Shown: positions 978 through 62,468 of the stretch, piece after piece | How positions within the stretch are numbered: position 1 is the stretch's first letter | How the letters are laid out: the number at the start of each line of letters is the position of its first letter | Assembly: GCF_023217965.1 (NCBI RefSeq) | Contig: NZ_JALPSC010000002.1 | Location: forward strand, 1,240,001 to 1,304,000 | Source: Prevotella sp. E13-27 | Lineage (GTDB): Bacteria; Bacteroidota; Bacteroidia; Bacteroidales; Bacteroidaceae | Length of the DNA stretch: 64,000 nt | Direction: 5' to 3' | Position numbers and translations under genes: made by a program | The notes under the pieces: model-generated | What the model was told of the DNA's origin: nothing | Seen by the model: only the letters and a program-made list of their open reading frames with translations | Database searches by the model: none

Positions 978-1150
978 ATGTGCATATTGACGAGCCATGA
1001 TTCAGCGTGGCACAATTCGCTACCGCCGTGGCCAACGAACTAATGTGGGCATTGGAAGGCCTGGTACATTATGTATCAAACTACTATTCTAATAGGCCTC
1101 AAAAGACTTGTTTTTCCCCTTATTTGACAAATTATAAACCCCAAAAAGCG

Positions 1151-1216
1151 TTTGGCCTAAACACTCGAAGTGATCTAACTAAACACTATGGGCGTTATTA
1201 CTAAACGCTCATGACG
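1151..1216. repeat. Tandem array of three 22-bp units built on GCGTT-N7-AACGC
   Basis: Three consecutive 22-bp units occupy 1151-1172, 1173-1194 and 1195-1216. In each, AAACACT or AAACGCT occupies unit positions 9 to 15, and GCG precedes the next unit. The dyad is clearest across 1192-1208 (GCGTT, seven bases, AACGC). The same layout recurs at 15730, 26162 and 58380. A weak extra unit may precede it. Confidence 0.7.
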
Positions 1217-1294: not shown

Positions 1295-4234
1295 ATGGTA
1301 TTACGCCTACTGCATATCATTGGTTTCTGGATGTGCCTGTCACTTGCCGTGACAGCACAGAAGTATCAGGTGACCGGCATCGTGTATGATGCGGACACCG
1401 AGAAGCCTATTGAGTTCGCATCGGTGATGCTCGCTGAGAGCGGACTATGGGCGGTGACCAATGCGAAGGGCGAATTCACGATAAAGAACGTGCCCAAGGG
1501 CTGGAACACGCTCACGGTGCAATGTCTGGGCTACAGGAAGCGCACGTTCCCTATGGAGCTGACACGAACCGTTGACGACATGCGACTGCGCCTGAAGCCC
1601 GAAAACCTAAAGCTTAGCGAGGTGACTGTCGTGGCAAAGAGAAAGACCGACGAGGCCACCACAAGCTATACCATAGACCGACAGGCGCTGGATCAGCAGC
1701 AGATAATAAGTCTGAGCGACATTCAGGCGCTATTGCCTGGCGGCAAGACCGTTAACCCATCGCTGATGGACGACAGCCGATTGGCTCTAAGAAGCGGCAG
1801 TGGCGAGAAAGGCAACGCCTCGTTTGGCACAGCCATAGAGGTTGACGGCATGCGCATGGACAACAACGCTGCGCTGGGAGAGACAATGGGTGCATCGATA
1901 CGCGCGCTGAGCTCGTCGAACATAGAAAGCGTGGAGATAGTGACGGGCATACCATCGGTGGAATATGGCGACCTGTCAAACGGCGTGGTGAAGGTAAACA
2001 CGCGCAAGGGTAAGTCGCCGTTTATAGTAGAGGGAAAGATAAACCAGCACACTCATCAGATAGCAGTAAACAAGGGTTTTGAGCTGTCGAAGAGGGGCGG
2101 AGTGATAAACACGTCAATAGAGCGTGCACGCTCGTTCTCAAACGCGGCATCGCCTTACACAGCCTATGAGCGCAACGTGCTCTCGATGCACTATATGAAC
2201 ATTTTCATGCGCGAGACAACGCCGCTAACGCTCAACGTGGGACTGACGGGCAACCTTGGCGGATATGACTCGAAGGCCGACCCCGACGAGATGCTCAACG
2301 ACTACTCGAAGGCTCACGACAACACGCTGCGCGCTAACGCAGAGCTACACTGGCTGCTGAACAAGCGCTGGATAACAAACATGTGGCTGAGCGGAGCCTT
2401 CGCCTATACAGACCGCAGGACGGAAGACTACAGCAGCACGAGCAGCGCCACTACCCTGCCCTATATCCACGCTATGGAAGAGGGCTACTTCATTGCCGAC
2501 CAGAGCCCCACAGGCTACTGGTACACCCGACGCTTCAACGACTCGAAGCCCACAAGTTGGAACGTGAAGCTGAAGGCCGACTGGACGCGACGCTTCGGCG
2601 ACACAGCCTACAAACTGCTCATAGGCGCAGACTACTCAGGAAGCCACAACAACGGACGCGGCACATACTACGACGACCCAAAACTCACGCCCACATGGCG
2701 CGAATACAGCTACAAGAATCTGCCCACAATGAACAATCTGGCGCTGTATGCCGAGGAGAAGGTAGTAGTGCCCACCACGAAGAAATCAACATTTGAGCTG
2801 ACGGCAGGCGTGCGAGAGGATATCACGATAATAGGCGGCTCCGACTATGGAACGGTGGGCAGCCTCTCGCCACGTGCCAATTCTCGCTATGTGTTCTGGA
2901 GAAACCAGCGCCGACAGCTGGTGAGCGACCTGCTGATACATGCCGGATGGGGAAAAAGCGTAAAACTGCCATCGTTTCAAGTGCTCTACCCCGCCCCAGT
3001 CTATACCGACCGCGAAGCCTTCGCCTCGACGAGCGACGCAGCCAACAGGACGTTCCGCGCTTATCACACACAGCCTTCGAAGGCATACTATAACCCCGAC
3101 CTGCGCTGGCAATACACCAACCAGACGGACATTGGCGCAGAAGCCACCATCAAGGGCACACGCATAGCCCTGTCGGCCTTCTACCACAGAACGAAGCATG
3201 CATATATGTCAACGACATCGTACACACCGTTTGCCTACAGCTACACCACCGACCCCAACACGCCTGCTATAGCTCCAGAGAACCGAGTGTTCAGCATAGA
3301 CCGCAACACGGGTGTGGTGACCATGAGCGACGCTACAGGAGTGGTGGCACCCACAGAGCTCACAGGAACGACGAGGAAGACTTTCGCCACAAACCAGTCA
3401 TATACCAATGCCGGCATGCCCATTGAGCGCTACGGTCTGGAATGGACGGTTGACTTCGCCCCGATAAAGCCGCTACGCACATCGGTACGCTTCGATGGCA
3501 ACTACTATTATTATAAAGGCATGGACGAGACACTCTTTGCCGACGTGCCATTAGGCATCAACTCATACATGGCCAACGGACAGCTTTATCAATATGTGGG
3601 CTACTATCGCGGAACGAGCGTCAGCAGCACAGCCAACATAGCCGACGCGACGATAGCCAACGGCTCGCTGTCGAAGCAGCTGAACCTCAACGCCACCATA
3701 ACGACCCACGTGCCAAAAATAAGACTTATAGTGGCACTACGACTGGAGACTACCCTCTACAGTTACCACCGCGACCTGAGCCAGCTGACCACAGGCACGC
3801 GAGGATATGTGCTGGAAAACGAAAACGGATATACCGGCGAGCCCTATGACGGCACACCTACCAACAAATCAATAGTGGTCTATCCGGAATACTACACCAC
3901 ATGGGACAACCCCGAGGAAAAGATTCCATTTGCAGAGCGCTTCCTGTGGGCGAAAGACAACGACCCCACACTCTATAGCGACCTGTCGAAACTGGTGCTG
4001 CGCTCAAACTACGGCTACATGATGAACCCCAACAGGATATCGGCCTACTACTCAGCCAACCTCAGCGTGACGAAAGAGATAGGCGACCACGTGGCAATAT
4101 CGTTCTATGCCAACAACTTCTTCAGAAACATGAAGACCGTACACTTGTCGCAGACAGACCTGAGAGAATCGCTCTTCTCAAAAAACTATATACCAAACTT
4201 CTACTACGGACTATCGCTAAAACTGAAACTATGA
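1295..4234 (+). CDS. TonB-dependent outer-membrane receptor
   Basis: A 979-residue outer-membrane transporter. Residues 1-21 are a signal peptide ending in VTAQ. Residues 24-110 form a carboxypeptidase-regulatory-like (CarboxypepD_reg) domain, with VTGIVYDADTEKPI and a CLGYRK strand. Residues about 115-250 form the plug domain, and the rest is a 22-strand-type barrel ending in alternating hydrophobic residues and a terminal KLKL. There is no SusD partner downstream, so this is not a classical SusC/D pair. Instead the stop overlaps the start of a DUF4876-like lipoprotein by 4 bp, followed by a DUF6850-like barrel. The imported substrate is unknown; metals, haem or siderophores are as possible as glycans. 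Confidence 0.9.
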   Translation: MVLRLLHIIGFWMCLSLAVTAQKYQVTGIVYDADTEKPIEFASVMLAESGLWAVTNAKGEFTIKNVPKGWNTLTVQCLGYRKRTFPMELTRTVDDMRLRLKPENLKLSEVTVVAKRKTDEATTSYTIDRQALDQQQIISLSDIQALLPGGKTVNPSLMDDSRLALRSGSGEKGNASFGTAIEVDGMRMDNNAALGETMGASIRALSSSNIESVEIVTGIPSVEYGDLSNGVVKVNTRKGKSPFIVEGKINQHTHQIAVNKGFELSKRGGVINTSIERARSFSNAASPYTAYERNVLSMHYMNIFMRETTPLTLNVGLTGNLGGYDSKADPDEMLNDYSKAHDNTLRANAELHWLLNKRWITNMWLSGAFAYTDRRTEDYSSTSSATTLPYIHAMEEGYFIADQSPTGYWYTRRFNDSKPTSWNVKLKADWTRRFGDTAYKLLIGADYSGSHNNGRGTYYDDPKLTPTWREYSYKNLPTMNNLALYAEEKVVVPTTKKSTFELTAGVREDITIIGGSDYGTVGSLSPRANSRYVFWRNQRRQLVSDLLIHAGWGKSVKLPSFQVLYPAPVYTDREAFASTSDAANRTFRAYHTQPSKAYYNPDLRWQYTNQTDIGAEATIKGTRIALSAFYHRTKHAYMSTTSYTPFAYSYTTDPNTPAIAPENRVFSIDRNTGVVTMSDATGVVAPTELTGTTRKTFATNQSYTNAGMPIERYGLEWTVDFAPIKPLRTSVRFDGNYYYYKGMDETLFADVPLGINSYMANGQLYQYVGYYRGTSVSSTANIADATIANGSLSKQLNLNATITTHVPKIRLIVALRLETTLYSYHRDLSQLTTGTRGYVLENENGYTGEPYDGTPTNKSIVVYPEYYTTWDNPEEKIPFAERFLWAKDNDPTLYSDLSKLVLRSNYGYMMNPNRISAYYSANLSVTKEIGDHVAISFYANNFFRNMKTVHLSQTDLRESLFSKNYIPNFYYGLSLKLKL

Positions 4235-7164: not shown

Positions 7165-7207
7165 TGAATTCGAGAAGAATTCTCAATTCTCTATTCTCAA
7201 TTCTCAA
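7165..7207. repeat. Heptad repeat (TTGAGAA type) between convergent genes
   Basis: On the minus strand this reads TTGAGAA, TTGAGAA, TAGAGAA, TTGAGAA, starting directly after the asd stop codon. It belongs to the GARNTNA heptad family also seen at 10449, 45342 and 62327. No ordinary terminator hairpin is visible between the two convergent genes. Confidence 0.6.
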
Positions 7208-8221
7208 TTACTTCACATTTCCAACCTTTATCAGGTATTCTGCAATCTGGACTGCGTTCAGGGCAGCACCCTTGCGAATCTGGTCGCCAGAGAGCCATAG
7301 AGTGAGACCGTTGTCGTCGGCCAAGTCCTTGCGCACGCGACCAACAAAGATGTTGTCCTTGCCGGCTGTTTCGAGAGGCATTGGGTAAGTGAGAGTAGCA
7401 GGATTGTCAACGAGCGTACAGCCAGGAGCTGCAGCTATAGCCTTCTGGGCATCCTCAACGCTAATGGGCTGCTCGGTCTCAATCCAAACGCTCTCGGAAT
7501 GACTGCGCAGAGAGCTTACACGAACACACATGGCTGAGCAGCGTGCATCGGTATGCATAATTTTGCGAGTCTCGTTATACATCTTCATCTCCTCTTTAGT
7601 ATAACCGTTGGGCTGGAACACGTCAATCTGAGGAATAACATTATATGCCAGCTGATGGGGGAACTTCTTGATGGTCTTCACCTCGCCTGTTTCAACAATC
7701 TCCTTGTACTGCTGCTGAAGCTCCTGCATAGCGGCAGCACCTGCACCAGAAGCACTCTGATAGCTTGACACGTGAATGCGCTTGATGTGGCTCAGCTTCT
7801 CCAAAGGCTGAAGAACCACCACCATCATTATAGTAGTACAGTTGGGGTTGGCAATGATTCCACGAGGACGGTTCAAAGCATCCTCAGCATTGCACTCGGG
7901 CACTACCAATGGCACATCATCGTCCATGCGGAAAGCGCTGGAATTGTCAATCATCACGGCACCATACTTAGTAATATCCTCAGCAAACTCCTTAGATGTT
8001 CCAGCACCGGCAGATGTAAAGACTATGTCAATATCCTTGAAGTCGTCGCCATGCTTGAGCAACTTAACCTCGATGTCCTTACCCTGATAGTTGTACTTAC
8101 GGCCTGCGCTACGCTCTGAACCAAAAAGCACAAGCTCGTCCATTGGAAAATTTCTCTCTGCGAGAATACGGAGGAATTCCTGTCCTACGGCGCCACTGGC
8201 ACCAACAATTGCTACTTTCAT
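7208..8221 (-). CDS. asd: Aspartate-semialdehyde dehydrogenase
   Basis: A 337-residue enzyme converting L-aspartyl phosphate to the semialdehyde with NADPH, the branch point to lysine/diaminopimelate, threonine and methionine. The N-terminus [17 protein letters not shown] is the nucleotide-binding loop. The catalytic cysteine is in NPNCTTI near residue 127, and [10 protein letters not shown] and the late histidine region follow. A longer in-frame start 120 bp upstream exists but adds a non-homologous leader across the promoter, so the start at 8221 is chosen. It is monocistronic, with a TACTTTTG -7 box upstream and divergent from the antiporter gene. Confidence 0.95.
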
Positions 8222-8340: not shown

Positions 8341-10455
8341 ATGGGTTACCTTCACATAACCGACCCCACGCTCATTTTCTTCGTAGTACTGATGATTATT
8401 CTGTTTGCGCCGATAATCATGAGTAAGCTGCGCATTCCCCATATCATCGGTATGGTACTGGCAGGCGTGCTCATTGGCGAGCACGGACTGAACATCCTGG
8501 AGCGCGACGAGTCGTTTGAGCTTTTTGGACGCGTGGGACTGTTCTACATCATGTTCCTCGCAGGTCTTGAGATGGACATGGAGAGCGTGAAGAAATACTC
8601 ACGCAAGTTCGTCATTTTCGGACTGCTTACATGTTTCGTTCCGCTCATCCTCACCTACCTCATGTCAATGACGATACTCGGCTATAGCGGCAAGGCATCA
8701 TTCCTGTTGGGATGTATCATGGCTTCAAACACGCTTATTGCCTATCCCATCGTGGGACGCTACGGTCTGCAGCGAAACTCAAGCGTGATGCTCAGCGTGG
8801 GCTCAAGCATGATTTCGCTATTCATGTCGCTTGTAATGCTGGCAGGACTGGCAGCCACGTTTAGCGACGACAGCGGATGGCTGTTCTGGGTGATGTTTGC
8901 AGTAAAGCTGGCAGCTTTTATAACAGGCAGCATCTTAATCATTCCTCGTCTGACGCGCTATTTCCTGCGCCGTTACAGCGACTCGGTCATGCAGTATATC
9001 TTCGTGCTGTCGGTAATGTTCCTCAGCGCAGCACTTTCCTCGCTCATAGGACTGGAAGGCATCTTCGGAGCATTCTTCTCAGGACTGATACTCAACAGAT
9101 ATATACCCCATGTGTCGCCACTGATGAACCGTATAGAGTTCATAGGAAACGCTGTCTTCATTCCATATTTCCTTATAGGTGTGGGCATGCTAATAGACCT
9201 TAGCACGCTGGCAGAGAACCCCAGCATGTGGTGGATTGTGGCGATGATAACATTCTTCGGCACATTCGGAAAAGCTCTCGCAGCCTATGCGTCGAGTCTC
9301 ATCTTCCGACTATCTAAAGCCGATGGCCACATGATGTTCGGACTCACCTCAGCCCACGCAGCAGGAGCCATAGCCATGGTTATGGTGGGAATGAGACTGG
9401 AAGTATCGTCAGGAGTGATGCTGGTAGATAATGTGATGCTCAACGGTATCGTGATAATGATTCTCGTAACCTGCATCGTGTCAACACTCATGACTCAGAA
9501 GGCTGCCATAGACATAAGCATAGGCAATGCCTCAGCACTACCAAGAAAAAACGAGAGCGAAAATGGCAAGACAAAGACACTCATCTGTGTGAAATATCCT
9601 GAGATAGCACCACAACTGGTATATCTCGCACTACTCATGCGCAAGCCCAAATCAAAGAGCGAACTGGTGGCGCTTAACGTGGTCTATGATGACGAGAACA
9701 GCAGTAAGGCTCGCGAAGACGGACTGCAACTGCTGGAGAAGCTGCAGAAGCAGGCAGCAGCATCGGAAGTGGCGATGCAGACACAGGTGAGACTGGCAAC
9801 AAACATTGCCAACGGCATAAAGCATGCCTTCCGTGAGTGTGCCTGTTCAGACATCATAATGGGCATGCACGTACACACTAACGTGACGCAGAAGTTCTGG
9901 GGAGAGTTCATACAAAGCCTCTACAATGGACTGAACCGTCAAATCATACTAACACGTTTTGAACAGCCGCTCTCTACTCTCAGACTGATACATGTTGCCG
10001 TGCCATCGAGAGCAGAGTATGAGCCAGGCTTCCACCGCTGGCTGGAGCGTCTGTGCCGCTTTGCCGAACAGCTTGACTGTCGCATAATGTTTCATGGGCG
10101 CAACGAGACGCTAAAACTGCTGAGGGAGTTCATTGAGAAAGAACATCCAAGCGTGAGAGGAGAGTATAAGTTCATGGCTCATTGGAACGAGCTGCCCACG
10201 CTGGCTGCTGGAATAGAGAAAGACCACTTGTTCGTGGTGGTAACAGCACGTAGGGGAACCATCAGCTACAAGAACGCATTAGACCGTCTGCCCGATGAGC
10301 TAACGAAGTATTTCGCAGGCACAAACCTCATGATTGTGTTTCCAGACCAGTATGGTGTGCAGAAGGAAGACACGATGAGCTTCACAGAGGCACAGCACCA
10401 CGAGGAGAACAGTATCTACGACACTATCCTGAGATGGGTGCATAGGAAGAGGTGA
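8341..10455 (+). CDS. CPA2-family cation:proton antiporter with C-terminal universal-stress-like domain
   Basis: A 704-residue inner-membrane protein. Residues 1-390 carry about 12-13 membrane helices of the Na+/H+ exchanger fold, including the [21 protein letters not shown] segment and [14 protein letters not shown] typical of KefB/NhaS-type CPA2 exchangers. From about residue 415 the chain is soluble and looks like one or two UspA-like domains rather than TrkA-N/C domains. It probably exchanges Na+ or K+ for protons and contributes to pH or ion homeostasis; the ion cannot be told. It is divergent from asd, and its stop codon sits inside the first unit of a heptad repeat. Confidence 0.85.
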
Positions 10456-10486
10456 GAAGTGAGAGGTTAGAGGTTAGAAGTAAGAA
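10449..10486. repeat. GA-rich heptad repeat at a gene junction
   Basis: Units GAGGTGA, GAAGTGA, GAGGTTA, GAGGTTA and GAAGTAA follow one another. The TGA stop of the antiporter gene (10453-10455) is part of the first unit, and the array ends 2 bp before the next start codon. Confidence 0.7.
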
Positions 10487-15666: not shown

Positions 15667-15729
15667 AATAATTACCCTACAAATAATCATTTCCCAAATA
15701 ATCATAGACACTAAGAAAACAAAAAAGCG

Positions 15730-15795
15730 TTCTAGAAGAACGCAATAAGAGATTAATAAGAACGAGCTGAGAGTTTAAAAAGAATGCTCGTCTAT
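15730..15795. repeat. Tandem array of three 22-bp units built on GCGTT-N7-AACGC
   Basis: Units at 15730-15751, 15752-15773 and 15774-15795. The first has the perfect dyad GCGTTCTAGAAGAACGC (15727-15743). Later units keep AAGAACG and AAGAATGC at the same register. The array lies between two minus-strand genes and its last bases enter the end of the upstream membrane-protein gene. Confidence 0.7.
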
Positions 15796-16823
15796 TTCCA
15801 TTTCATAAGCACAAGCCCTAAAGCAATCCACAGCAGTTCGCGAACGCGACAGATTATGCTGACAAAGATGCCAAGTGCAGCAGACAGTCCAAGGGCAGCA
15901 ATAGAGAGCACGAAGCCACCCTCCTGAACGCCCAACTGCATGGGAAGGAAACCAATAAGGTTGGCCAATAGCGACGTAAATGAGAGTATCAGTACTGAGT
16001 GGAGAAAGGTGAGCATAAGACCTGTGAAGCCTCCTCCACAGTCGATGTCGAATAGGAGCAACATGAAGAATATCTCAAGACTCTGAACGATACGTGAGAA
16101 AAATTCGAGGGCAAAGCTGCGATAGAAAGTAGGTTTGTCCTGATTTCTGAGAGCAGCTATCTGCTCATCAACCTCATTGATGGTCTGCTCGTGATTAGAC
16201 ATGAAGCGACGCCCCCACCCTCGCAGTCCAGGTATGCGAGCCACCCACGACATGAGCATCTTTACGACGCCGTGACGATAGCCACGAATGAACAATGCAA
16301 AAGCCGTGACGCAGAGCACTATGGCGAGGAAGAAAAGCACCATGAGGACAGGCGTCAGAGCAAGGTCGCCAACAGCAGCAAGGAAAAGATAGAGAAATAT
16401 AGACACGAACCAAAACCAGAAATGGGCATAGATGTGCATCATGGCATATAGGATGACCGATGATGTGGCATGCTCCTTTGAAATGGTTCGCGAGAGTTCC
16501 ATTATACGATAAGGCTCGCCCCCAAGTCCGCCAACAGGTGTGGCGTAATTGAGGGCGTAGCCAATGATAGTAAGACGATAGATGCTGGGAAAGGAAACAT
16601 GTTCGCCTTCATCACACTTGCTCTTGACGATGAGCTGCCACGACCAAGCATTGATGGCGTAGATGACAGCCCAAACCCCTACTATGGGGACAAGCCAATA
16701 ACCAGCGTGGCATAGATGCTGCCAAAGCTCGGAAAAGCTGACGTCGAACGTAAATAGCATCACCACAACGGTGGCCAGTCCGAGCAGGAAGAACAAGTTG
16801 TTCAGGCGATTCCTATTCCACAT
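15792..16823 (-). CDS. Lysylphosphatidylglycerol synthase TM-region / UPF0104 flippase-like membrane protein
   Basis: A 343-residue inner-membrane protein with 8 or more hydrophobic helices and the family segments GYALNYATPVGGLGGEPYRI (residues about 90-109) and LANLIGFLPMQLGVQEGG near 290-307. These match the membrane part of MprF-type proteins and UPF0104, but the soluble aminoacyl-transferase domain is absent. Related proteins are thought to flip or transport lipids. It starts 25 bp after the preceding gene and is likely the third gene of the operon that begins at 21250. Confidence 0.85.
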   Translation of the reverse strand: MWNRNRLNNLFFLLGLATVVVMLFTFDVSFSELWQHLCHAGYWLVPIVGVWAVIYAINAWSWQLIVKSKCDEGEHVSFPSIYRLTIIGYALNYATPVGGLGGEPYRIMELSRTISKEHATSSVILYAMMHIYAHFWFWFVSIFLYLFLAAVGDLALTPVLMVLFFLAIVLCVTAFALFIRGYRHGVVKMLMSWVARIPGLRGWGRRFMSNHEQTINEVDEQIAALRNQDKPTFYRSFALEFFSRIVQSLEIFFMLLLFDIDCGGGFTGLMLTFLHSVLILSFTSLLANLIGFLPMQLGVQEGGFVLSIAALGLSAALGIFVSIICRVRELLWIALGLVLMKWK

Positions 16824-25255: not shown

Positions 25256-26092
25256 TTATTTCAGTTTCACGTTACTGGTATTATAGGCCAATGCGGCTCC
25301 GATGGCTGTACAGAACTCTGAATACTTAGGAATGTGGAAACGCACATTATAGAGTTTCTCAAGCGGAGGGAAAATGTCTTTGCATTGTGGCAGAAGGGTA
25401 AGATTGCCTATGAGCACCATATCGCGACAGCCTGTTCCCTGAGCTGCTAATACTGAAGCAGAGCCAATGGTCTGGAGCACCATTCCTATGATGCCAGCTG
25501 CCACATCTTCCTTACTCGTATCGCTCTTAGCACGAGCAAAGATGCTGGCAGTAGCCTCCATTGGAAGTCCTGGAAGAGGCTGGGCAGAGATGTCACCAAT
25601 AAGAAGGTTTACATTCTTAAGATTACCCTGCAAGGCTAATTCTGAAATCTGGTTTATATCACTAGTACCCAGACAGATACGCGACAGTCCTTGCAGAGTG
25701 CCGCCACCTATGCCGATACCTCCAACATGACTCATCTCGTTGCCCTTACACATAACAAACGACGTTCCTGTTCCCATTGAGATGACTATAGCATGATCGA
25801 TGTTTGACTCATAGCGTGCGCCAAGAGCATCGGCAATAAACTCGTCGCATCGGCTGGTAGCCACTCCATAGACATCGTTCTTCACATAGCCTGCTCCAAC
25901 GCCTGTCAGCATTACGTGTTCAACCTCTGACAGAGCGATGTTGTTGTCATAGAGATATTTTCCAAAGGCACCATAAAGCGACGTCACAGGGTCAGCAGCA
26001 GTTATGCGTATAGGAGCCGTAGGCTTTCCGTCACGCAGTCCGACAATCTTTGTGGTCGATATGCCCACATCAATTCCAATTATTATTCCCAT
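25256..26092 (-). CDS. coaW: Type II pantothenate kinase
   Basis: A 278-residue kinase of the acetate/sugar kinase-Hsp70 fold that phosphorylates pantothenate, the first step of coenzyme A synthesis. The N-terminal MGIIIGIDVGISTTKIVGL is the phosphate-1 loop. VISMGTGTSFV and GGIGIGGGTLQGL are the type II signature segments, and TAIGAALAY closes the fold. A longer reading frame from 26155 adds 21 non-homologous residues reaching into the repeat array, so the start at 26092 is chosen. Type II enzymes as a class are often resistant to CoA feedback. Confidence 0.9.
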   Translation of the reverse strand: MGIIIGIDVGISTTKIVGLRDGKPTAPIRITAADPVTSLYGAFGKYLYDNNIALSEVEHVMLTGVGAGYVKNDVYGVATSRCDEFIADALGARYESNIDHAIVISMGTGTSFVMCKGNEMSHVGGIGIGGGTLQGLSRICLGTSDINQISELALQGNLKNVNLLIGDISAQPLPGLPMEATASIFARAKSDTSKEDVAAGIIGMVLQTIGSASVLAAQGTGCRDMVLIGNLTLLPQCKDIFPPLEKLYNVRFHIPKYSEFCTAIGAALAYNTSNVKLK

Positions 26093-26142
26093 TATTTCAG
26101 TAATTTGTTTTCGTGATAAAAATTGTTTGTTAAAAAGAGATC

Positions 26143-26249
26143 TACCTAAACGCAAAGAGCGTTCTTACCAAACGCTGAGAGTATTCTTACCAAACGCTAA
26201 GAGTGTTCTTACCAAACGCTAAGAGTGTTCTTACCAAACGCTAAGAGAG
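26143..26249. repeat. Tandem array of four full 22-bp units plus a partial one
   Basis: Near-identical units at 26162-26183, 26184-26205, 26206-26227 and 26228-26249, each TTCTTACCAAACGCT plus seven variable bases; a partial unit precedes them. Adjacent units create GCGTT or GTGTT, N7, AACGC dyads. The array sits between greA and coaW, in the leader of coaW if it is read through from greA. This is the best conserved copy of the family. Confidence 0.85.
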
Positions 26250-26259
26250 AAAAGCTCAA

Positions 26260-26724
26260 TTATATAGAGACACTCTCAATGCGAAGGCGAAGCGTTCCTG
26301 CTGGAACTTTCACTTCCACTTCATCGCCAGCTTTCTTGCCAAGCAGAGCCTCAGCAATGGGCGACTTAACAGAAATCTTTCCCTCTCGCAGATTAGCCTC
26401 ATGGGGACTTGCTATCGTATAGGTCATGCGACTGTTGTTTGCAAGATTAGTCATCTCTACCCTACTGAGCAACTGTATACAGTCAGTATGAACTCTCGAC
26501 ATGTCAAGCACGCGAGCATTCTCCAGCACCCTCTGCATAAAACGTATTCTGCCCAGAATGCGGCCTTGCTCACGCTTGGCAGCATGATACTCAAAGTTCT
26601 CGCTGAGGTCGCCCTTATCGCGAGCCTCGGAAATGGCATCCTTCACCTGAGGCAGATCGACGGTCTCTAATTGACGCAATTCAGCCACGAGTTTGTCGTA
26701 GCCTTCTTGAGACATATATTCCAT
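26260..26724 (-). CDS. greA: Transcription elongation factor GreA
   Basis: A 154-residue factor that rescues backtracked RNA polymerase by stimulating transcript cleavage. Residues 1-75 form the coiled coil (YDKLVAELRQLE ... ARDKGDLSENFEYHAAKREQ), with the acidic tip residues in DLSEN. Residues 80-154 form the FKBP-like domain, with TYTIASPHEAN, ISVKSPIAEALLGKKAGD and VKVPAG. Length is normal. It has its own -7 box at 26755-26762 and may read into coaW. Confidence 0.95.
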   Translation of the reverse strand: MEYMSQEGYDKLVAELRQLETVDLPQVKDAISEARDKGDLSENFEYHAAKREQGRILGRIRFMQRVLENARVLDMSRVHTDCIQLLSRVEMTNLANNSRMTYTIASPHEANLREGKISVKSPIAEALLGKKAGDEVEVKVPAGTLRLRIESVSI

Positions 26725-45333: not shown

Positions 45334-45341
45334 CTTCTATA

Positions 45342-45385
45342 ATTGAGAATTGAGAGTTGAGAATTGAGAATTGAGAGGTAGGATT
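45342..45385. repeat. Heptad repeat (ATTGAGA type)
   Basis: Five to six 7-bp units related to TTGAGAA lie just upstream of the antiporter start codon on its minus strand. The same repeat type occurs at 7165. Confidence 0.6.
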
Positions 45386-45388
45386 AGA

Positions 45389-45436
45389 AGTCTAAAGTCT
45401 ATAGTCTAAAGTCTATAGTCTCTAAAGTCTGTAGTC
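45389..45436. repeat. Heptad repeat AGTCTAW overlapping the end of pepT
   Basis: Units alternate AGTCTAA and AGTCTAT, with one 2-bp insertion, for about seven copies. The pepT stop codon (45406-45408) and its last codons lie within the array. Confidence 0.65.
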
Positions 45437-46659
45437 AAAATCTCTACAGTCTTCACGATGACATTCATGGCCTTTTCCATAGACTGTATGGGCACAAACT
45501 CGTAAGGTCCGTGGAAGTTCAGTCCACCTGCGAAGATGTTAGGACAAGGCAGTCCCTTGAACGACAGCTGTGCGCCGTCTGTGCCTCCACGTATAGGCTT
45601 CACCTTTGGCTCCACGCCTGCCTCCTTCATAGCCTTCATCACGAGGTCTATCACATGACGCTGTGGGTCCACCATCTCCTTCATGTTATAGTACTGGTCG
45701 TTCACCTCACAGCTCACCGTTCCCTCGCCATACTTAGCATTCATCTCGTCGGCACATCTTTTTATATAAGCCTTTCGTGCCTCGAACTTCTCGCGGTCAT
45801 GGTCGCGTATTATGTAGCTCAGCTTGCCCAGCTCCGTATTTGTCTGCATGCCAATGAGATGATAGAATCCCTCGTAGCCCTCTGTCGTCTCAGGAGTCTC
45901 GTTGGCAGGCAGCATTGCCGCAAACTCCACTGCCAGTCGGTTAGCGTTGACCATTTTTCCTTTGGCATATCCTGGGTGTACGCTCACACCCTTTATGGTG
46001 ATCTTTGCCGATGCAGCGTTGAAGTTCTCATACTCCAGCTCACCCACATCACCGCCGTCCATGGTGTAGCCCCACTGACAGCCGAACTTCTTCACGTCGA
46101 AGTGATGAGCGCCCATGCCTATCTCCTCATCGGGGTTAAACGCCACGCGCACCTTTCCGTGTCTTATCTCCTTATGGTCGCGCAGATAGCACATGGCCTG
46201 CATAATCTCAGCTATGCCCGCCTTGTCGTCAGCGCCCAGCAGAGTATGTCCGTCAGTCACTATCAGGTCCTCGCCCACGTGTGACAGTAGCTCAGGAAAC
46301 TTCTTTGGTCCGAGCACCATTCCCTCTGACAGCACAATGTCTTTTCCGTCATAGTTCTCCACTATCCTCGGCTTAATATTTGCACCAGAGCAGTCGGGGC
46401 TTGTGTCGTAGTGCGAAATAAAACCTATTGTGGGCACCTGGCTCTCGTCAAGCCCTGTTCCCTCCAGGTTTGCAGGCAGAGTGCCATACAGATAGCCTTT
46501 GTCATCCATCTCCACGTCAGACAGTCCCTCTGCCTCCATCTCTTTCTTCAGATATTCAGCAAACACCAGCTGTTTCTTGGTGCTTGGCACTGTCTCACTC
46601 TCTTCTGCCGACTGTGTGTCGAACTTCGTATAATTCAGGAATCTCTCAATGATATTCAT
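45406..46659 (-). CDS. pepT: Peptidase T (tripeptide aminopeptidase)
   Basis: A 417-residue cytoplasmic M20B metallopeptidase that removes N-terminal residues from tripeptides. [11 protein letters not shown] (Zn ligand His), [16 protein letters not shown] (bridging Asp), [16 protein letters not shown] (general-base Glu and ligand), [19 protein letters not shown] and [24 protein letters not shown] are all present. The start at 46659 ([17 protein letters not shown]) is chosen; the longer frame crosses the TAACTTTG -7 box. The last nine residues are encoded by the AGTCTAW repeat and are unlikely to be ancestral. Confidence 0.93.
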
Positions 46660-55867: not shown

Positions 55868-56017
55868 TTACACTTTTCTGAACGAATTATCGCTGCAAAA
55901 TTACACTTTTCTGGACGAATTTCCAAATATTTTGCCAATTTTATGAGGGAATGTTTGTGCCTTTCTGCCAATTTTATGAGGGAATAATTAGGCCTTCTTG
56001 CCAATTTTATGAGGGAA
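55868..56017 (-). promoter_or_regulatory. Promoter with five phased repeat sites upstream of the hsd-linked AAA/DUF4143 gene
   Basis: Two copies of ACACTTTTCTGRACGAAT begin at 55870 and 55903, and three copies of GCCAATTTTATGAGGGAA begin at 55934, 55967 and 56000 (plus-strand coordinates). Spacing is exactly 33 bp within each type. On the minus strand TTG (55924-55926), 20 bp, TAATTTTG (55896-55903) form the promoter. The second copy of the first element fills the spacer between -33 and -7, and the first covers the leader. The farthest copy ends 4 bp before the hsdM stop. Confidence 0.7.
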
Positions 56018-56020
56018 CAG

Positions 56021-57532
56021 CTATTCTTTAAGAGCAAACCCAATACTTCCTAACTGCTTCTTAATCTCGTCCTCCAAGCGATGGCTTTCTGCAAAGAGAC
56101 CACTAAGCTCTGAGGTCAGGCGCTGCATCTTTTCTGCAAATGGTTCACCATCGTCTTCCTGCTCTGCGATACCCACATAGCGACCTGGAGTGAGGATGAA
56201 GTCCTGAGCCTTGATGTCCTGTAGGGTTTTCACAGCGCAAAAGCCTGCTTCATCTTCAAGGGTGCCATTGCGGAAACTTTCGAAGGTGTCTGCAATCTTA
56301 CGGATATCGGGCTCCATCAATTCACGAACGGCACGAGTCACCATCGTACCCATATTCCTTGCATCAATGAAGAGCACCTTACCTGCTTGTTGCTTGTTGC
56401 GAGAGAGGAACCACAGCGATACAGGAATACCTGTGCTATAGAAAAGCTGGCTGGGCAGGGCAATGATACCTTCTACAAGGTCTGCTTCTACTATCTTCTG
56501 ACGGATGGTGCCTTCACCTCCAGTCTGACTGCTCAAAGCACCATTGGCCAATACCAAACCAATACGGCCTGTGGGTGAAAGATGGTGAATCATGTGCTGC
56601 ATCCAAGCAAAGTTGGCATTACCTGCTGGTGGTATGCCATATTGCCAGCGCTTGTCGTTAGCCAACTTATCTGCTCCCCAATCGCTGAGATTGAAAGGAG
56701 GATTAGCCATGATAAAGTCTGCTTTCAAGGTGGGATGCTGATCATTGAAGAAGGTGTCTGCGTATGATTGACCCAGATTGGCCTCCAACCCACGAATGGC
56801 TACATTCATATGGGCCATCTTCCAGGTAGAGGGGTTGGCCTCCTGACCATAGATGCTGATGTGGCGCAGGTCTTTCTGATGATTCTCGATAAACTTGGCG
56901 CTCTGCACAAACATGCCACCACTACCACAGCAGGGGTCATAAACACGACCTTCGTATGGCTGCAACACCTCTACAATGGTACGGACAATACAGCTGGGAG
57001 TGTAGAATTCGCCTGCATTCTTACCTTCCATCGAGGCAAACTTCTGCAGACAGTATTCATAGACGCGTCCCAGCAGGTCCTTTTCGTCGCCTGATGCCAA
57101 CATGTGGATATTGGTAAAGAGATCTACCACATCGCCCAAGCGTCGTTTGTCCAGTTCTGGGCGAGCATAATTGCTGGGCAATACGCCCTTCAGTTTGTTA
57201 TTCTCGCGCTCAATGGCTTGCAGGGCATCGTCGATTACTTTGCCTATCTGTGGGGTGTGAGCTGCTAAGGAGATTACATTCCAGCGTGCTTCCTGAGGAA
57301 CAAAGAATACACCATCAGCCTCGTATTCGTCTTTATCTTCCACATCAGCATATTCATCTTGGGATAGCTCTGCAAACTTTACCTCGAACTTATCGCTGAT
57401 ATATTTGAGGAAGATAAGTCCAAGCACCACGCCCTCGTATTCAGAGGCGTTGAGATTTCCTCTAAGCTTATCCGCAGCCCTCCATATCGCATCCTCAAAT
57501 CCTATTGAGGTTGTATTTTCTTTCTTTGCCAT
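56021..57532 (-). CDS. hsdM: Type I restriction enzyme, M (DNA methyltransferase) subunit
   Basis: A 503-residue N6-adenine methyltransferase. Residues 10-140 are the HsdM N-terminal helical domain (AIWRAADKLRGNLNASEYEGVVLGLIFLKYISDKFE). The SAM-binding motif DPCCGSGGMFV is near residue 199 and the catalytic NPPF near 277 (FIMANPPFNLSDW). With the S subunit it protects host DNA and completes the R2M2S complex. It is the first gene of the locus and has its own promoter region. Confidence 0.95.
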   Translation of the reverse strand: MAKKENTTSIGFEDAIWRAADKLRGNLNASEYEGVVLGLIFLKYISDKFEVKFAELSQDEYADVEDKDEYEADGVFFVPQEARWNVISLAAHTPQIGKVIDDALQAIERENNKLKGVLPSNYARPELDKRRLGDVVDLFTNIHMLASGDEKDLLGRVYEYCLQKFASMEGKNAGEFYTPSCIVRTIVEVLQPYEGRVYDPCCGSGGMFVQSAKFIENHQKDLRHISIYGQEANPSTWKMAHMNVAIRGLEANLGQSYADTFFNDQHPTLKADFIMANPPFNLSDWGADKLANDKRWQYGIPPAGNANFAWMQHMIHHLSPTGRIGLVLANGALSSQTGGEGTIRQKIVEADLVEGIIALPSQLFYSTGIPVSLWFLSRNKQQAGKVLFIDARNMGTMVTRAVRELMEPDIRKIADTFESFRNGTLEDEAGFCAVKTLQDIKAQDFILTPGRYVGIAEQEDDGEPFAEKMQRLTSELSGLFAESHRLEDEIKKQLGSIGFALKE

Positions 57533-58339: not shown

Positions 58340-58379
58340 TACTGTGTTTAGGATGCATCACAAAGACACACAACGAGCG

Positions 58380-58445
58380 TTTAGAAAGAACGCACGCGGC
58401 GTTTAGAAAAAACACCGCAAGCAATCAGGAAGAACGCTCGCGGCA
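58380..58445. repeat. Tandem array of three 22-bp units built on GCGTT-N7-AACGC
   Basis: Units at 58380-58401, 58402-58423 and 58424-58445, with AAGAACGC, AAAAACAC and AAGAACGC at the same register; a fourth, weaker unit may follow. The dyad GCGTTTAGAAAGAACGC spans 58377-58393. This copy is G/C-rich in its variable part. Confidence 0.75.
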
Positions 58446-58484: not shown

Positions 58485-60071
58485 TCACTTGTTTTTCAGC
58501 CATTCGCCAGCCACCAGCGCTATAACTACACCTGCGACGGCACCACCCATATGGCCACTCATACTGACACCATTGCCCAGACTCGTAACAAGGTTAAGGC
58601 CAAGAAAAATCAACGGAGCCTTCGCTGCATTGAAACTGGTTTTCAGACTCATGACCAACCAGAAGGCGAGCAGTCCGAACACACCGCCCGATGCACCTAT
58701 GGTGACTCCCCTGCTAAACGAAAGGATGCTGATTCCAGAGACAATAACCGAAAGAATGAAAATGCCGAAGATGGCGCGCCCTCTGTAATTCGCGGATAGG
58801 GAAACGACACACAGCACATAACAGAAAAGGTTTCCAATCACATGCATCAGACCACCATGCAGGAATCCATAGGTCAACAGTCGCCACCACTCATGGCCAT
58901 AGAGCACCAAGTCTGTCTTCAGTGCGCCCCATCTGACAAGCAGCTCCATGTTATTGCTATCACCCCTAAAACCGACAAAGAACAGGGAGATATAGATGAC
59001 GATGCACAATAACGGAGGAATGACGAGTAGCAGATAATCTGGCTTCAAGATGTATTTAAAGCCATGAGATAATCCGTCTTTTATTGCAAGCGACATGATG
59101 TACGATTCCTCAAACTCATCTCTGACAAAGAAAAGGGTGAACAACAATAGCAGCATAAGAGCTTCAAAGAGAAGCATGAACTGGAATATCAAGATATTTT
59201 TGCGGCCTATGTCAAATTGTTTCTCGCCTGTCATTTCATAAAACACCAAGTCTTTTTCGTCCAAAACCTCTACATTTAAATAATTCCGGACAACTTTCCT
59301 ATAATATTCTGTGTTATCACTATGGTGCAGACGCTTGAACACCATATTATCCTTGTCTTCGTTGAAAAAACTGCAACGCGACTTCTTCACCAACCCACGA
59401 GCCCATTGATTGACTTTTTCCTTGGAAGCATAGGTATAGTCATGAACTGACTCATGCTTATAACATATAACCACATTGGGTTTACGGGCCAGATGATACA
59501 CTTCAGAATAGACTATATTAATATCTTTTCCATACCTCCTATCAGTTGTATAGAAGTCAACACCATAGTTATGACGAGAACATTCCAGTTCCGAATTTAC
59601 GAAGTGTTGAATTTGAATATAATCTTTTTTTCCAAAAAAATCCAACGTGTTGTCGTTGATAGTCGATATGATAGCATACGATGATGCCCTCTTTTGAACA
59701 AAGGAAGAGATGTTGCCAAAAAAGAAAAGTGAGAAAAAAAACAACCCTATCCAACAGTAAGACTCAACGCCTTCACGTATGCTGCGAATCCAGTTCCTAC
59801 TGATGTATAGGTGGATAACGCTAAACAAAATTGGAATGATAAGATTTGGCACATCACTGCTTGCCATAGGCAACAAGTCGGCTTTCAGCCAGTACCACCT
59901 TATAACGCCCCACACTATACCCAACAATATGCCCGACAACATGACATAGGCAATTCCCTGGTAGATGGAGTATTTCTTTACTTTGCATTCTTCATCCATT
60001 GGCGTTTGTAACCGTGAAGATACAGACTTCTTGGATTTTTTAGGCTTCTTTGCGGTTTTAGTTTTCATCAT
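58485..60071 (-). CDS. Rhomboid-family intramembrane serine protease with long N-terminal extension
   Basis: A 528-residue membrane protein. The C-terminal half (about 330-528) is a rhomboid: EWWRLLTYGFLHGGLMHVIGN (about 395-415), catalytic Ser461 in GASGGVFG and His507 in SGHMGG. The N-terminal half is unusual: a basic Lys-rich start, two or three membrane helices (about 35-130), then a soluble stretch of about 170 residues of no known family, then a further helix near 290-315. Rhomboids cut membrane proteins inside the bilayer. The substrate is unknown. It is monocistronic with a TACCTTTG -7 box at 60115-60122. Confidence 0.88.
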   Translation of the reverse strand: MMKTKTAKKPKKSKKSVSSRLQTPMDEECKVKKYSIYQGIAYVMLSGILLGIVWGVIRWYWLKADLLPMASSDVPNLIIPILFSVIHLYISRNWIRSIREGVESYCWIGLFFFSLFFFGNISSFVQKRASSYAIISTINDNTLDFFGKKDYIQIQHFVNSELECSRHNYGVDFYTTDRRYGKDINIVYSEVYHLARKPNVVICYKHESVHDYTYASKEKVNQWARGLVKKSRCSFFNEDKDNMVFKRLHHSDNTEYYRKVVRNYLNVEVLDEKDLVFYEMTGEKQFDIGRKNILIFQFMLLFEALMLLLLFTLFFVRDEFEESYIMSLAIKDGLSHGFKYILKPDYLLLVIPPLLCIVIYISLFFVGFRGDSNNMELLVRWGALKTDLVLYGHEWWRLLTYGFLHGGLMHVIGNLFCYVLCVVSLSANYRGRAIFGIFILSVIVSGISILSFSRGVTIGASGGVFGLLAFWLVMSLKTSFNAAKAPLIFLGLNLVTSLGNGVSMSGHMGGAVAGVVIALVAGEWLKNK

Positions 60072-62326: not shown

Positions 62327-62361
62327 TAGAGGTGAGAAGTAAGAGGTGAGAGGTGAGAGAT
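62327..62361. repeat. GA-rich heptad repeat, left arm
   Basis: Units GAGGTGA, GAAGTAA, GAGGTGA, GAGGTGA and GAGATTA follow the plus-strand stop codon after 4 bp. Together with the inverted array at 62407-62468 they can form a long imperfect hairpin between two convergent genes. Confidence 0.7.
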
Positions 62362-62406: not shown

Positions 62407-62468
62407 CCTCTCACCTCTTACCTCTTACCTCTAACTTCTCACCTCTCACCTCTAACCTCTCACCTCTA
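62407..62468. repeat. CT-rich heptad repeat, right arm
   Basis: About eight units of CCTCTCA, CCTCTTA, CCTCTAA type. On the minus strand they read as GARNTNA heptads starting at the TAG stop codon of the glycosidase gene (62466-62468). Confidence 0.7.

Follow-up and report, generated by a model that had tools for sequence, protein, structure and literature searches.

What are the short tandem arrays that lie between the genes of this stretch of DNA, and which of their traits is kept? The window, that is, the whole 64,000-nucleotide stretch analysed here, corresponds to C2:1240001-1304000 of a 3.96-Mb genome in two contigs (G000). An earlier note had described four arrays in it, made of imperfect units that follow each other at exactly 22 bp. 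A direct check of the sequence found all four in their places and in exact 22-bp register; for the array near 26 kb the place was right, and its extent had to be corrected to five units, 26132-26249. The arrays and their neighbours are listed below.

1143..1216, minus strand: array of three units, the last one with a palindromic TAGGCCA spacer
1295-4234, plus strand: TonB-dependent receptor gene, starting 87 bp downstream of the array at 1143..1216
15727..15795, plus strand: weak three-unit array that runs up to the stop codon of the gene at 15792-16823 (minus strand)
25256-26092, minus strand: Fumble-domain gene, whose start borders the array at 26132..26249
26132..26249, minus strand: array of five units
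26260-26724, minus strand: GreA/GreB-domain gene, whose end borders the array at 26132..26249
56021-57532, minus strand: HsdM-type gene, one neighbour of the array at 58355..58445
58355..58445, plus strand: B-type array of three units plus a degenerate one
58485-59999, minus strand: rhomboid-domain gene, the other neighbour of the array at 58355..58445

The unit of the window can be written GCGTT-TAGTAAG-AACGC-TnnnA (orientation O1) or its reverse complement. The proposed GCGTT-N7-AACGC dyad with its 7-bp spacer is indeed present in the window: when exact GCGTT-Nk-AACGC was counted for k from 0 to 30, only k = 7 (four cases) and k = 29 (two cases) were found, 29 being 7 + 22. A second dyad, AACGC-N5-GCGTT, alternates with the first one. 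Within the window, AACRC copies on one strand are most often 22 bp apart, with 10 pairs on the plus strand against a mean of 0.59 over spacings 5-79, and three pairs against a mean of 0.27 on the minus strand. The array at 15.7 kb is weak, with AACGC, AACGA and AATGC as half-sites, and it reaches the gene that terminates at 15792, meeting its stop codon.

Other periods were seen in the window. Tandem arrays of 7-bp units occupy 7178-7209, 10448-10486, 45341-45452, 62328-62359 and 62407-62467, mostly between called genes and with several unlike unit sequences, so that 7 bp is a second recurrent period with variable letters. One relative (G009) shows chiefly multiples of 7 as periods. A 33-bp tandem array (33 being 3 x 11) was also observed at 55933-56017, just downstream of the HsdM-type gene, with 2.6 copies and 88% matches.

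The same family is dispersed over the window's own genome. The pattern AACRC-N17-AACRC-N17-AACRC gives 27 + 37 overlapping matches (64), merged into 45 places, against 2 + 0 for the reversed pattern, and GCGTT-N7-AACGC occurs at 49 places versus two for its control. These searches led to 58 candidate clusters, of which 55 loci, holding 56 arrays, passed the array score, L060, L062 and L065 falling below it; the 54 loci outside the window were examined with 3 kb on each side. Each array has two to eight units. With genes called by a codon model, 26 arrays lie in tandem gaps, 20 in divergent gaps, three in convergent gaps and two at an edge, and the remaining five overlap a called ORF, so that a position between genes is a strong rule but not a strict one. 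Within tandem gaps, O1 follows the gene direction in 14 cases and opposes it in 12, as expected for random orientation. No circular (origin) position bias was detected among the G000 arrays. The chromosome without dnaA carries 38 of the 58 clusters (p 0.0013), or 30 of 48 once the B-type copies are removed (p 0.0125).

Some of these loci have larger surroundings in common. A longer flanking repeat is shared by L081, L083, L093 and the first array of the window. The B-type arrays are near-identical, and at seven loci (L055, L069, L073, L074, L082, L084 and L089) such an array precedes, by 51-102 bp, an HU-like gene of about 165 aa that is 97-100% identical to the reference copy; the one such gene that was scanned contains an HU-HIG domain. 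The B-type copy of the window, at 58355-58445, is an array without an HU gene. More distant HU relatives, with 71-72% identity, were noticed near the arrays of L078 and L085. Another side observation is a 22-bp array at L048:3001-3066, about 545 bp upstream of the 16S rRNA gene of an rRNA operon; the array at L058:2984-3049 is placed upstream of an rRNA operon by similarity, L058 being 98% identical to the L048 region over 2.3 kb.

Searches further afield with the window's own letters gave little. The two-unit GCGTT-N7-AACGC pattern had no match in the named genome collection, from which its own genome may have been left out, and none in viral contigs, so that carriage by phages was rejected. 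A 1.2-kb piece of the window was compared with 398 genomes of the same genus, taken from a larger group; the best of the matches listed were at most 80% identical, which makes a strain-level comparison impossible for the window's own species. When 60 relatives were scanned with the AACRC pattern, 14 genomes matched, the window's own among them; 11 other genomes of the genus account for 74 matches, against 61 for the reversed control in same-genus relatives. This probe is unfit for counting, since the reversed pattern keeps the 22-bp spacing and may catch other arrays. Because the pattern itself forces 22 bp, its matches show only that the units differ, and they do so widely: AACGCAATGCAAAACATCGTAA in G024, AACGCCACTCTGGTAGTAAGTG in G032 and three kinds of unit in G026. 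The GCGTT-N7-AACGC dyad is the version of one species, and relatives carry other units.

The period therefore had to be examined independently of letters, using a scan for periods of 10-60 bp with at least three copies and at least 70% self-match, the best period being retained at each place. A partly selected set comprised 684 kb from 14 genomes of the genus, chosen partly around pattern matches, with L126 and L140 (very short contig ends) set aside; it gave 32 places at period 22, against nine at 14, five at 44, three each at 21 and 23, two at 24 and none at 20. In an unbiased set of 20 stretches of 20 kb (400 kb) at preset coordinates in 14 other genomes of the genus, period 22 accounts for 16 of the 34 arrays, the others being 18 (four), 41 (four), 14 (three), 15 (three) and 16, 20, 39 and 44 (one each). 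Eight of the 14 genomes contribute these 22-bp arrays, among them the near relatives G156 and G170. All 16 are intergenic in DNA that is 88% coding. Five local shuffles of the set gave no arrays of any period. In seven genomes of other families (125 kb), the same scan found none at 22; a further 400 kb, made of 20 stretches of five such genomes with an 8-kb overlap between two stretches, yielded a single weak 22-bp array, along with periods 14 (seven), 18 (four), 21 (two), 10 and 27 (one each). Overall, a 22-bp array is present in 19 of the 28 same-genus genomes sampled, counting G146. Named matches to P. jejuni and P. denticola, together with the same-genus label of the relatives, point to Prevotella as this genus.

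The 22-bp preference hence extends well beyond the window, as the commonest period in the genus samples, and the proposal that the spacing and not the sequence is kept was supported by these scans, in which relatives show 22 bp with other units. A class of intergenic tandem arrays, with a length of 22 bp kept and a free unit sequence, is shown to be widespread in the genus; unit families are shown to change from one species, or small group of species, to the next, and several coexist in some genomes. The local observation in the window is part of this larger genus-wide class, here with several unlike families of one period. An extreme case was noticed at L120:4222-5436 (G026), where one long intergenic stretch is packed with several unlike 22-bp arrays and a 45-bp array. 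In G146, four 41-bp intergenic arrays were found within 40 kb (L183 and L184), with units that look unrelated and whole-unit dyad z values of 2.0, 0.1, 3.5 and 0.9, and another stretch of this genome has four 22-bp arrays. At L318:13662-13872, also in G146, five units of one sequence are followed by unlike units in one continuous 22-bp register.

The coexistence of families is best seen in G170, sampled over 400 kb with 16 of the 20 stretches chosen around one family, P1. At least three unit families of period 22 are present: P1 (TTATTTTCATGAAAATAA lattice), P2 (GTGCGGAG..TCAGCAC) and P3 (AAAAGGGCATCTTTT). Period 22 was found 36 times in this sample (21 P1, 11 P2 and four others), period 44 twice, and all other periods from 14 to 60 together 12 times; 20 of the 21 P1 elements have four units. 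The P1 end pattern has 53 matches each in G156 and in G170, against none for the reversed controls and none in G000. Its distribution over the two chromosomes is uneven, with 48 matches on C1 in G156 and 50 in G170, versus five and three on C2. The dnaA gene lies on C2 in both genomes and on C1 in G000, here again on the chromosome poorer in arrays. Of note, the chromosome with dnaA is the smaller one in G170 and G156 and the larger one in G000, the 22-bp family studied being richer on the other one in each case.

On G170 C1, the 38 P1 loci are centred on a point 33 kb from coordinate 0 (R 0.458, p 2.5e-4), and the G156 C1 positions show the same pattern (p 5.5e-4), though ancestry shared with G170 means that this is not independent. 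On this chromosome the GC skew has a positive sign at 0.5 Mb and a negative one in 19 of the 20 stretches from 1.1 to 1.79 Mb, which is consistent with an origin near coordinate 0. P2 occurs on both G170 chromosomes (26 and 14 among the 40 places scored). Among its matches listed for C1, 11 of the 12 that fall below 0.84 Mb have minus orientation and 10 of the 14 beyond 1.0 Mb have plus orientation; its polarity seems, for these listed matches, to follow the replication arms. The placement of P1 enters into a more ambitious reading, which we regard as unlikely though worth stating: a protein or enzyme of the genus with a 22-bp ruler (and a 41-bp one in some lineages) would build or maintain intergenic nucleoprotein lattices on DNA of almost any sequence, and lineage-specific families such as P1 would serve as a chromosome address.

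Are the units read as DNA or as RNA? Over 174 G000 units, A13 is conserved at 97%, T5 at 93%, C17 and A14 at 91%, and positions 19-21 are near random; the G000 units were found by seeds and a score favouring the core letters, so that this contrast between conserved and free positions is partly built in. The spacer has variants such as TAGTAAG, TGGTAAG and, in last units, the palindromic TAGGCCA; within the core, transitions at the half-site CG are the most frequent change. About three unit positions are thus free and units adjoin without spacers; a CRISPR array was rejected on these grounds. Symmetry was then scored against column permutations. At p<=0.05, it holds for 12 of the 14 scored arrays of the unbiased genus set and for 11 of the 32 partly selected ones, with a mean z of 1.5 in the latter set; a simpler, earlier test had counted 6.3 complementary pairs versus 5.5. 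By the profile measure, the 26-kb array of the window lacks symmetry (z -0.4), as does the one 22-bp array from another family (p 0.85). Universal palindromy of the units was therefore rejected. Many units are nevertheless quasi-palindromic, which places half-sites at steps of about 11 bp, with orientation alternating from one to the next.

These quasi-palindromes would suit RNA elements, in which each transcribed unit would fold into a hairpin and the array as a whole would serve as 3'-end terminator, stabiliser or processing site. The placement of P1 in G170 points the same way, since it favours convergent gaps and the 3' sides of genes: seven of its 21 arrays in the stretches lie in convergent gaps, 12 in tandem gaps, one in a divergent gap and one over a weak ORF (background gaps of at least 100 bp: 32/118/42 convergent/tandem/divergent), and 11 of the 12 in tandem gaps are nearer the upstream stop than the downstream start. 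A stem kept by pairing should however show compensatory changes, and these were found neither in the dyads of the window's family nor in P1. In both G000 dyads, counted without the eight near-identical B-type loci and the window's B-type copy, a single one of the 14 pairs reached z 2.2 in pairwise shuffles; all others stayed below 1, several of them being negative. In P1, whose units were found by period and not by letters, though labelled by CATGAA, no pair tested was positive; three dyad positions retain their complementary pair in 98-100% of units, two others in 22-57%. Besides, orientation to genes is random in G000, where 20 of the 56 arrays sit in divergent gaps, and the window arrays and those of 18 further loci have no Rfam match. 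The absence of dyad covariation and the random orientation in G000 argue for DNA half-sites and not RNA stems, and the conservation profile in G000 and P1 is that of half-sites read singly on DNA. Transcript processing, one of the functions offered by the earlier note, is disfavoured on the same grounds, and RNA elements as a whole look improbable.

How do the arrays evolve? Between G156 and G170, 13 aligned loci show 3.5% divergence in arrays (44/1254) against 6.6% in the 150-bp flanks (249/3788; p 3.6e-5), the remaining sequence being 5.2% divergent. The copy-number change between orthologous loci that had been suggested as a check was observed: one pair of arrays differs by exactly 44 bp, that is, two units. 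A single-base T indel breaks the register in two of the 13 arrays, and gap columns number 59 in arrays against 31 in flanks, mostly through one 44-bp and one 13-column difference. A wider set of 11 comparisons with P. jejuni or P. denticola, restricted for P. jejuni to loci whose alignment spanned the array, gave 10.2% in arrays (113/1112) and 14.9% in flanks (479/3219; p 6e-5), versus 8.7% in the rest, mostly genes; here L308 contributes two arrays, its rest being counted twice, and L262 serves twice as reference. One pair of this set has a 21-column difference at the array end.

Six P1 arrays of P. jejuni face G170 gaps without P1, and at a self-match of at least 0.60 another 22-bp repeat is found in five of these six gaps, against 48 of 192 in the background, gap length being uncontrolled and one counterpart (L295) being placed by offset only. 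At 0.70 or more, the count is three of six against 32 of 192; the sixth gap has none. In the five gaps, 22 outscores every other period tested from 18 to 26. Four of the gaps were aligned, without revealing a clean empty site or a target duplication; no clean empty site could be obtained because the P. jejuni and G170 gaps differ throughout. Mobility demonstrated by empty sites was thus tried and not supported.

Tentatively, and with somewhat less than even confidence, we favour a reading in which each array is a DNA lattice with a half-site roughly every 11 bp, to which a putative protein binds cooperatively along one face of the DNA. This protein would be a dimer, or a small set of paralogues that differ in sequence preference; each protomer would cover one turn (about 11 bp) of underwound DNA, stacking along one helix face, and 22 bp would be the period of the protein filament. 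We infer, as the earlier note had done, that the unit would represent two helical turns on one face. Arrays would then change mostly by whole units, and different families could occupy one intergenic slot in different species. Several observations support this lattice: 22 dominates the unbiased sample (16/34) where shuffles give 0; conservation across the unit is uneven in P1 and, with the bias already mentioned, in G000, and the dyads lack covariation; orientation to genes is random in the G000 tandem gaps; two comparisons show lower divergence in arrays than in the 150-bp flanks; near relatives differ by exactly two units; unlike units abut in one 22-bp register at L318:13662-13872; and other 22-bp repeats occur, at the lower threshold, in five of the six G170 gaps that face P1 of P. 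jejuni. Since dyad symmetry is not universal, a half-site lattice is not established for all families. Other elements count against the lattice. Gene conversion among copies could lower array divergence, and the occupation of the same slot could reflect gap length. Genes are more conserved than arrays in the P. jejuni/P. denticola comparisons (8.7% against 10.2%), gap columns are denser in arrays and T indels break the register between G156 and G170, and one relative (G146) has 41 bp besides 22. Finally, a single DNA-binding protein accepting unrelated units is not expected.

The main alternative is that the arrays are selfish or neutral dispersed minisatellites, a real possibility that we would stop short of calling probable. 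A duplication or copying process of fixed 22-bp step (41 in one lineage), acting preferably at hairpins, would make tandem units from whatever sequence is there, and copies would spread to other intergenic sites, with no host function. The free unit sequence and constant step are well explained in this way, as are dispersed families of at least 40 similar copies, the multicopy HU-like gene that B-type arrays adjoin and the larger repeats next to some arrays; a step of 22, which three does not divide, would also be expected to confine arrays to intergenic DNA. The lower divergence of arrays relative to flanks and the uneven conservation across the unit (in P1, and with bias in G000) fit this process less well. 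No enzyme for it was found, the family search does not support a RAYT, and the four aligned gaps gave neither a clean empty site nor a target duplication. A fixed-step duplication whose products are tolerated, or later used, fits almost as well as the lattice.

A further candidate is spread by a RAYT transposase, as for REP/BIME elements. REP/BIME palindromes with their RAYT transposases are the subject of PMC2817692. The arrays are often palindromic (in the proportions given above for the two sets), extragenic and present in many copies per genome. They differ from REP/BIME in their exact tandem 22-bp register without spacers and in the absence of the transposase family PF01797 (Y1_Tnp) from six of eight array-bearing genomes (G156, G170, G024, G026, G003 and G334), the exceptions being G000 with four matches and G085 with one. 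Conversely, PF01797 is found in three of four genomes without a 22-bp array in the sampled stretches (G016, G004 and G141, not G370), G016 having one 44-bp array there. The family search thus does not support a cognate transposase in these eight genomes, and this origin is very improbable. REPs sit mostly at gene ends, a preference shared by P1.

The closest known system is BrickBuilt of Porphyromonas gingivalis, as described in PMC4596501: intergenic, spacerless, imperfect tandem units of 23 nt forming a minisatellite with MITE ends, at 19 loci in ATCC 33277, with a repeat number that varies between strains and predicted stem-loops. The window-class arrays resemble it in being intergenic, spacerless and imperfect, with changes in unit number. 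They differ by their 22-bp period, 23 being rare in the genus (three places in the partly selected set and none in the unbiased one), and by the several unlike families that have period 22 in common, in contrast with the one unit family of BrickBuilt, with its leader, tail and IS5-like terminal repeats. No leader or tail common to families was seen when own-genome loci were compared all-against-all, within the rows listed; among the matches listed, shared flanks concern subsets such as B-type and X-type. According to the same paper (PMC4596501), BLASTn matches to BrickBuilt are confined to P. gingivalis, with homologues in P. gulae, and 41- and 22-nt tandem repeats are said to have been noted earlier in P. 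gingivalis W83. The 41-nt tandem repeats of PgRS/MITE464 (PMC4596501) recall the period of the four G146 arrays, whose units look unrelated, unlike this single family of one species.

Two further comparisons concern DNA sites. Plasmid iterons are direct repeats of about 22-bp length, with one unit and one origin; the window-class arrays are direct repeats of similar length, but no bias towards an origin is seen in the window's own family. SlmA/Noc-type chromosomal sites are palindromes that become sparse near the terminus, a distribution that P1 of G170 may share, with the origin taken from GC skew. No description of the class, searched as Prevotella 22-bp tandem repeats, minisatellites or extragenic palindromes, was found in the open-licence literature, and a search of PMC5771137 for terms gave nothing further on such repeats.

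Repeats are normally classed by their sequence. Here, the trait kept over many species is a length, with a free sequence, which points to a physical ruler, either a protein lattice or a fixed-step duplication process, and these two readings make opposite predictions. P1 is the example behind the address reading, being almost only on the chromosome without dnaA in G170 and G156 and centred there on the presumed origin. Since one array family is nearly confined to that chromosome, these arrays offer a handle on how the two-chromosome bacteria of this group might mark their chromosomes.
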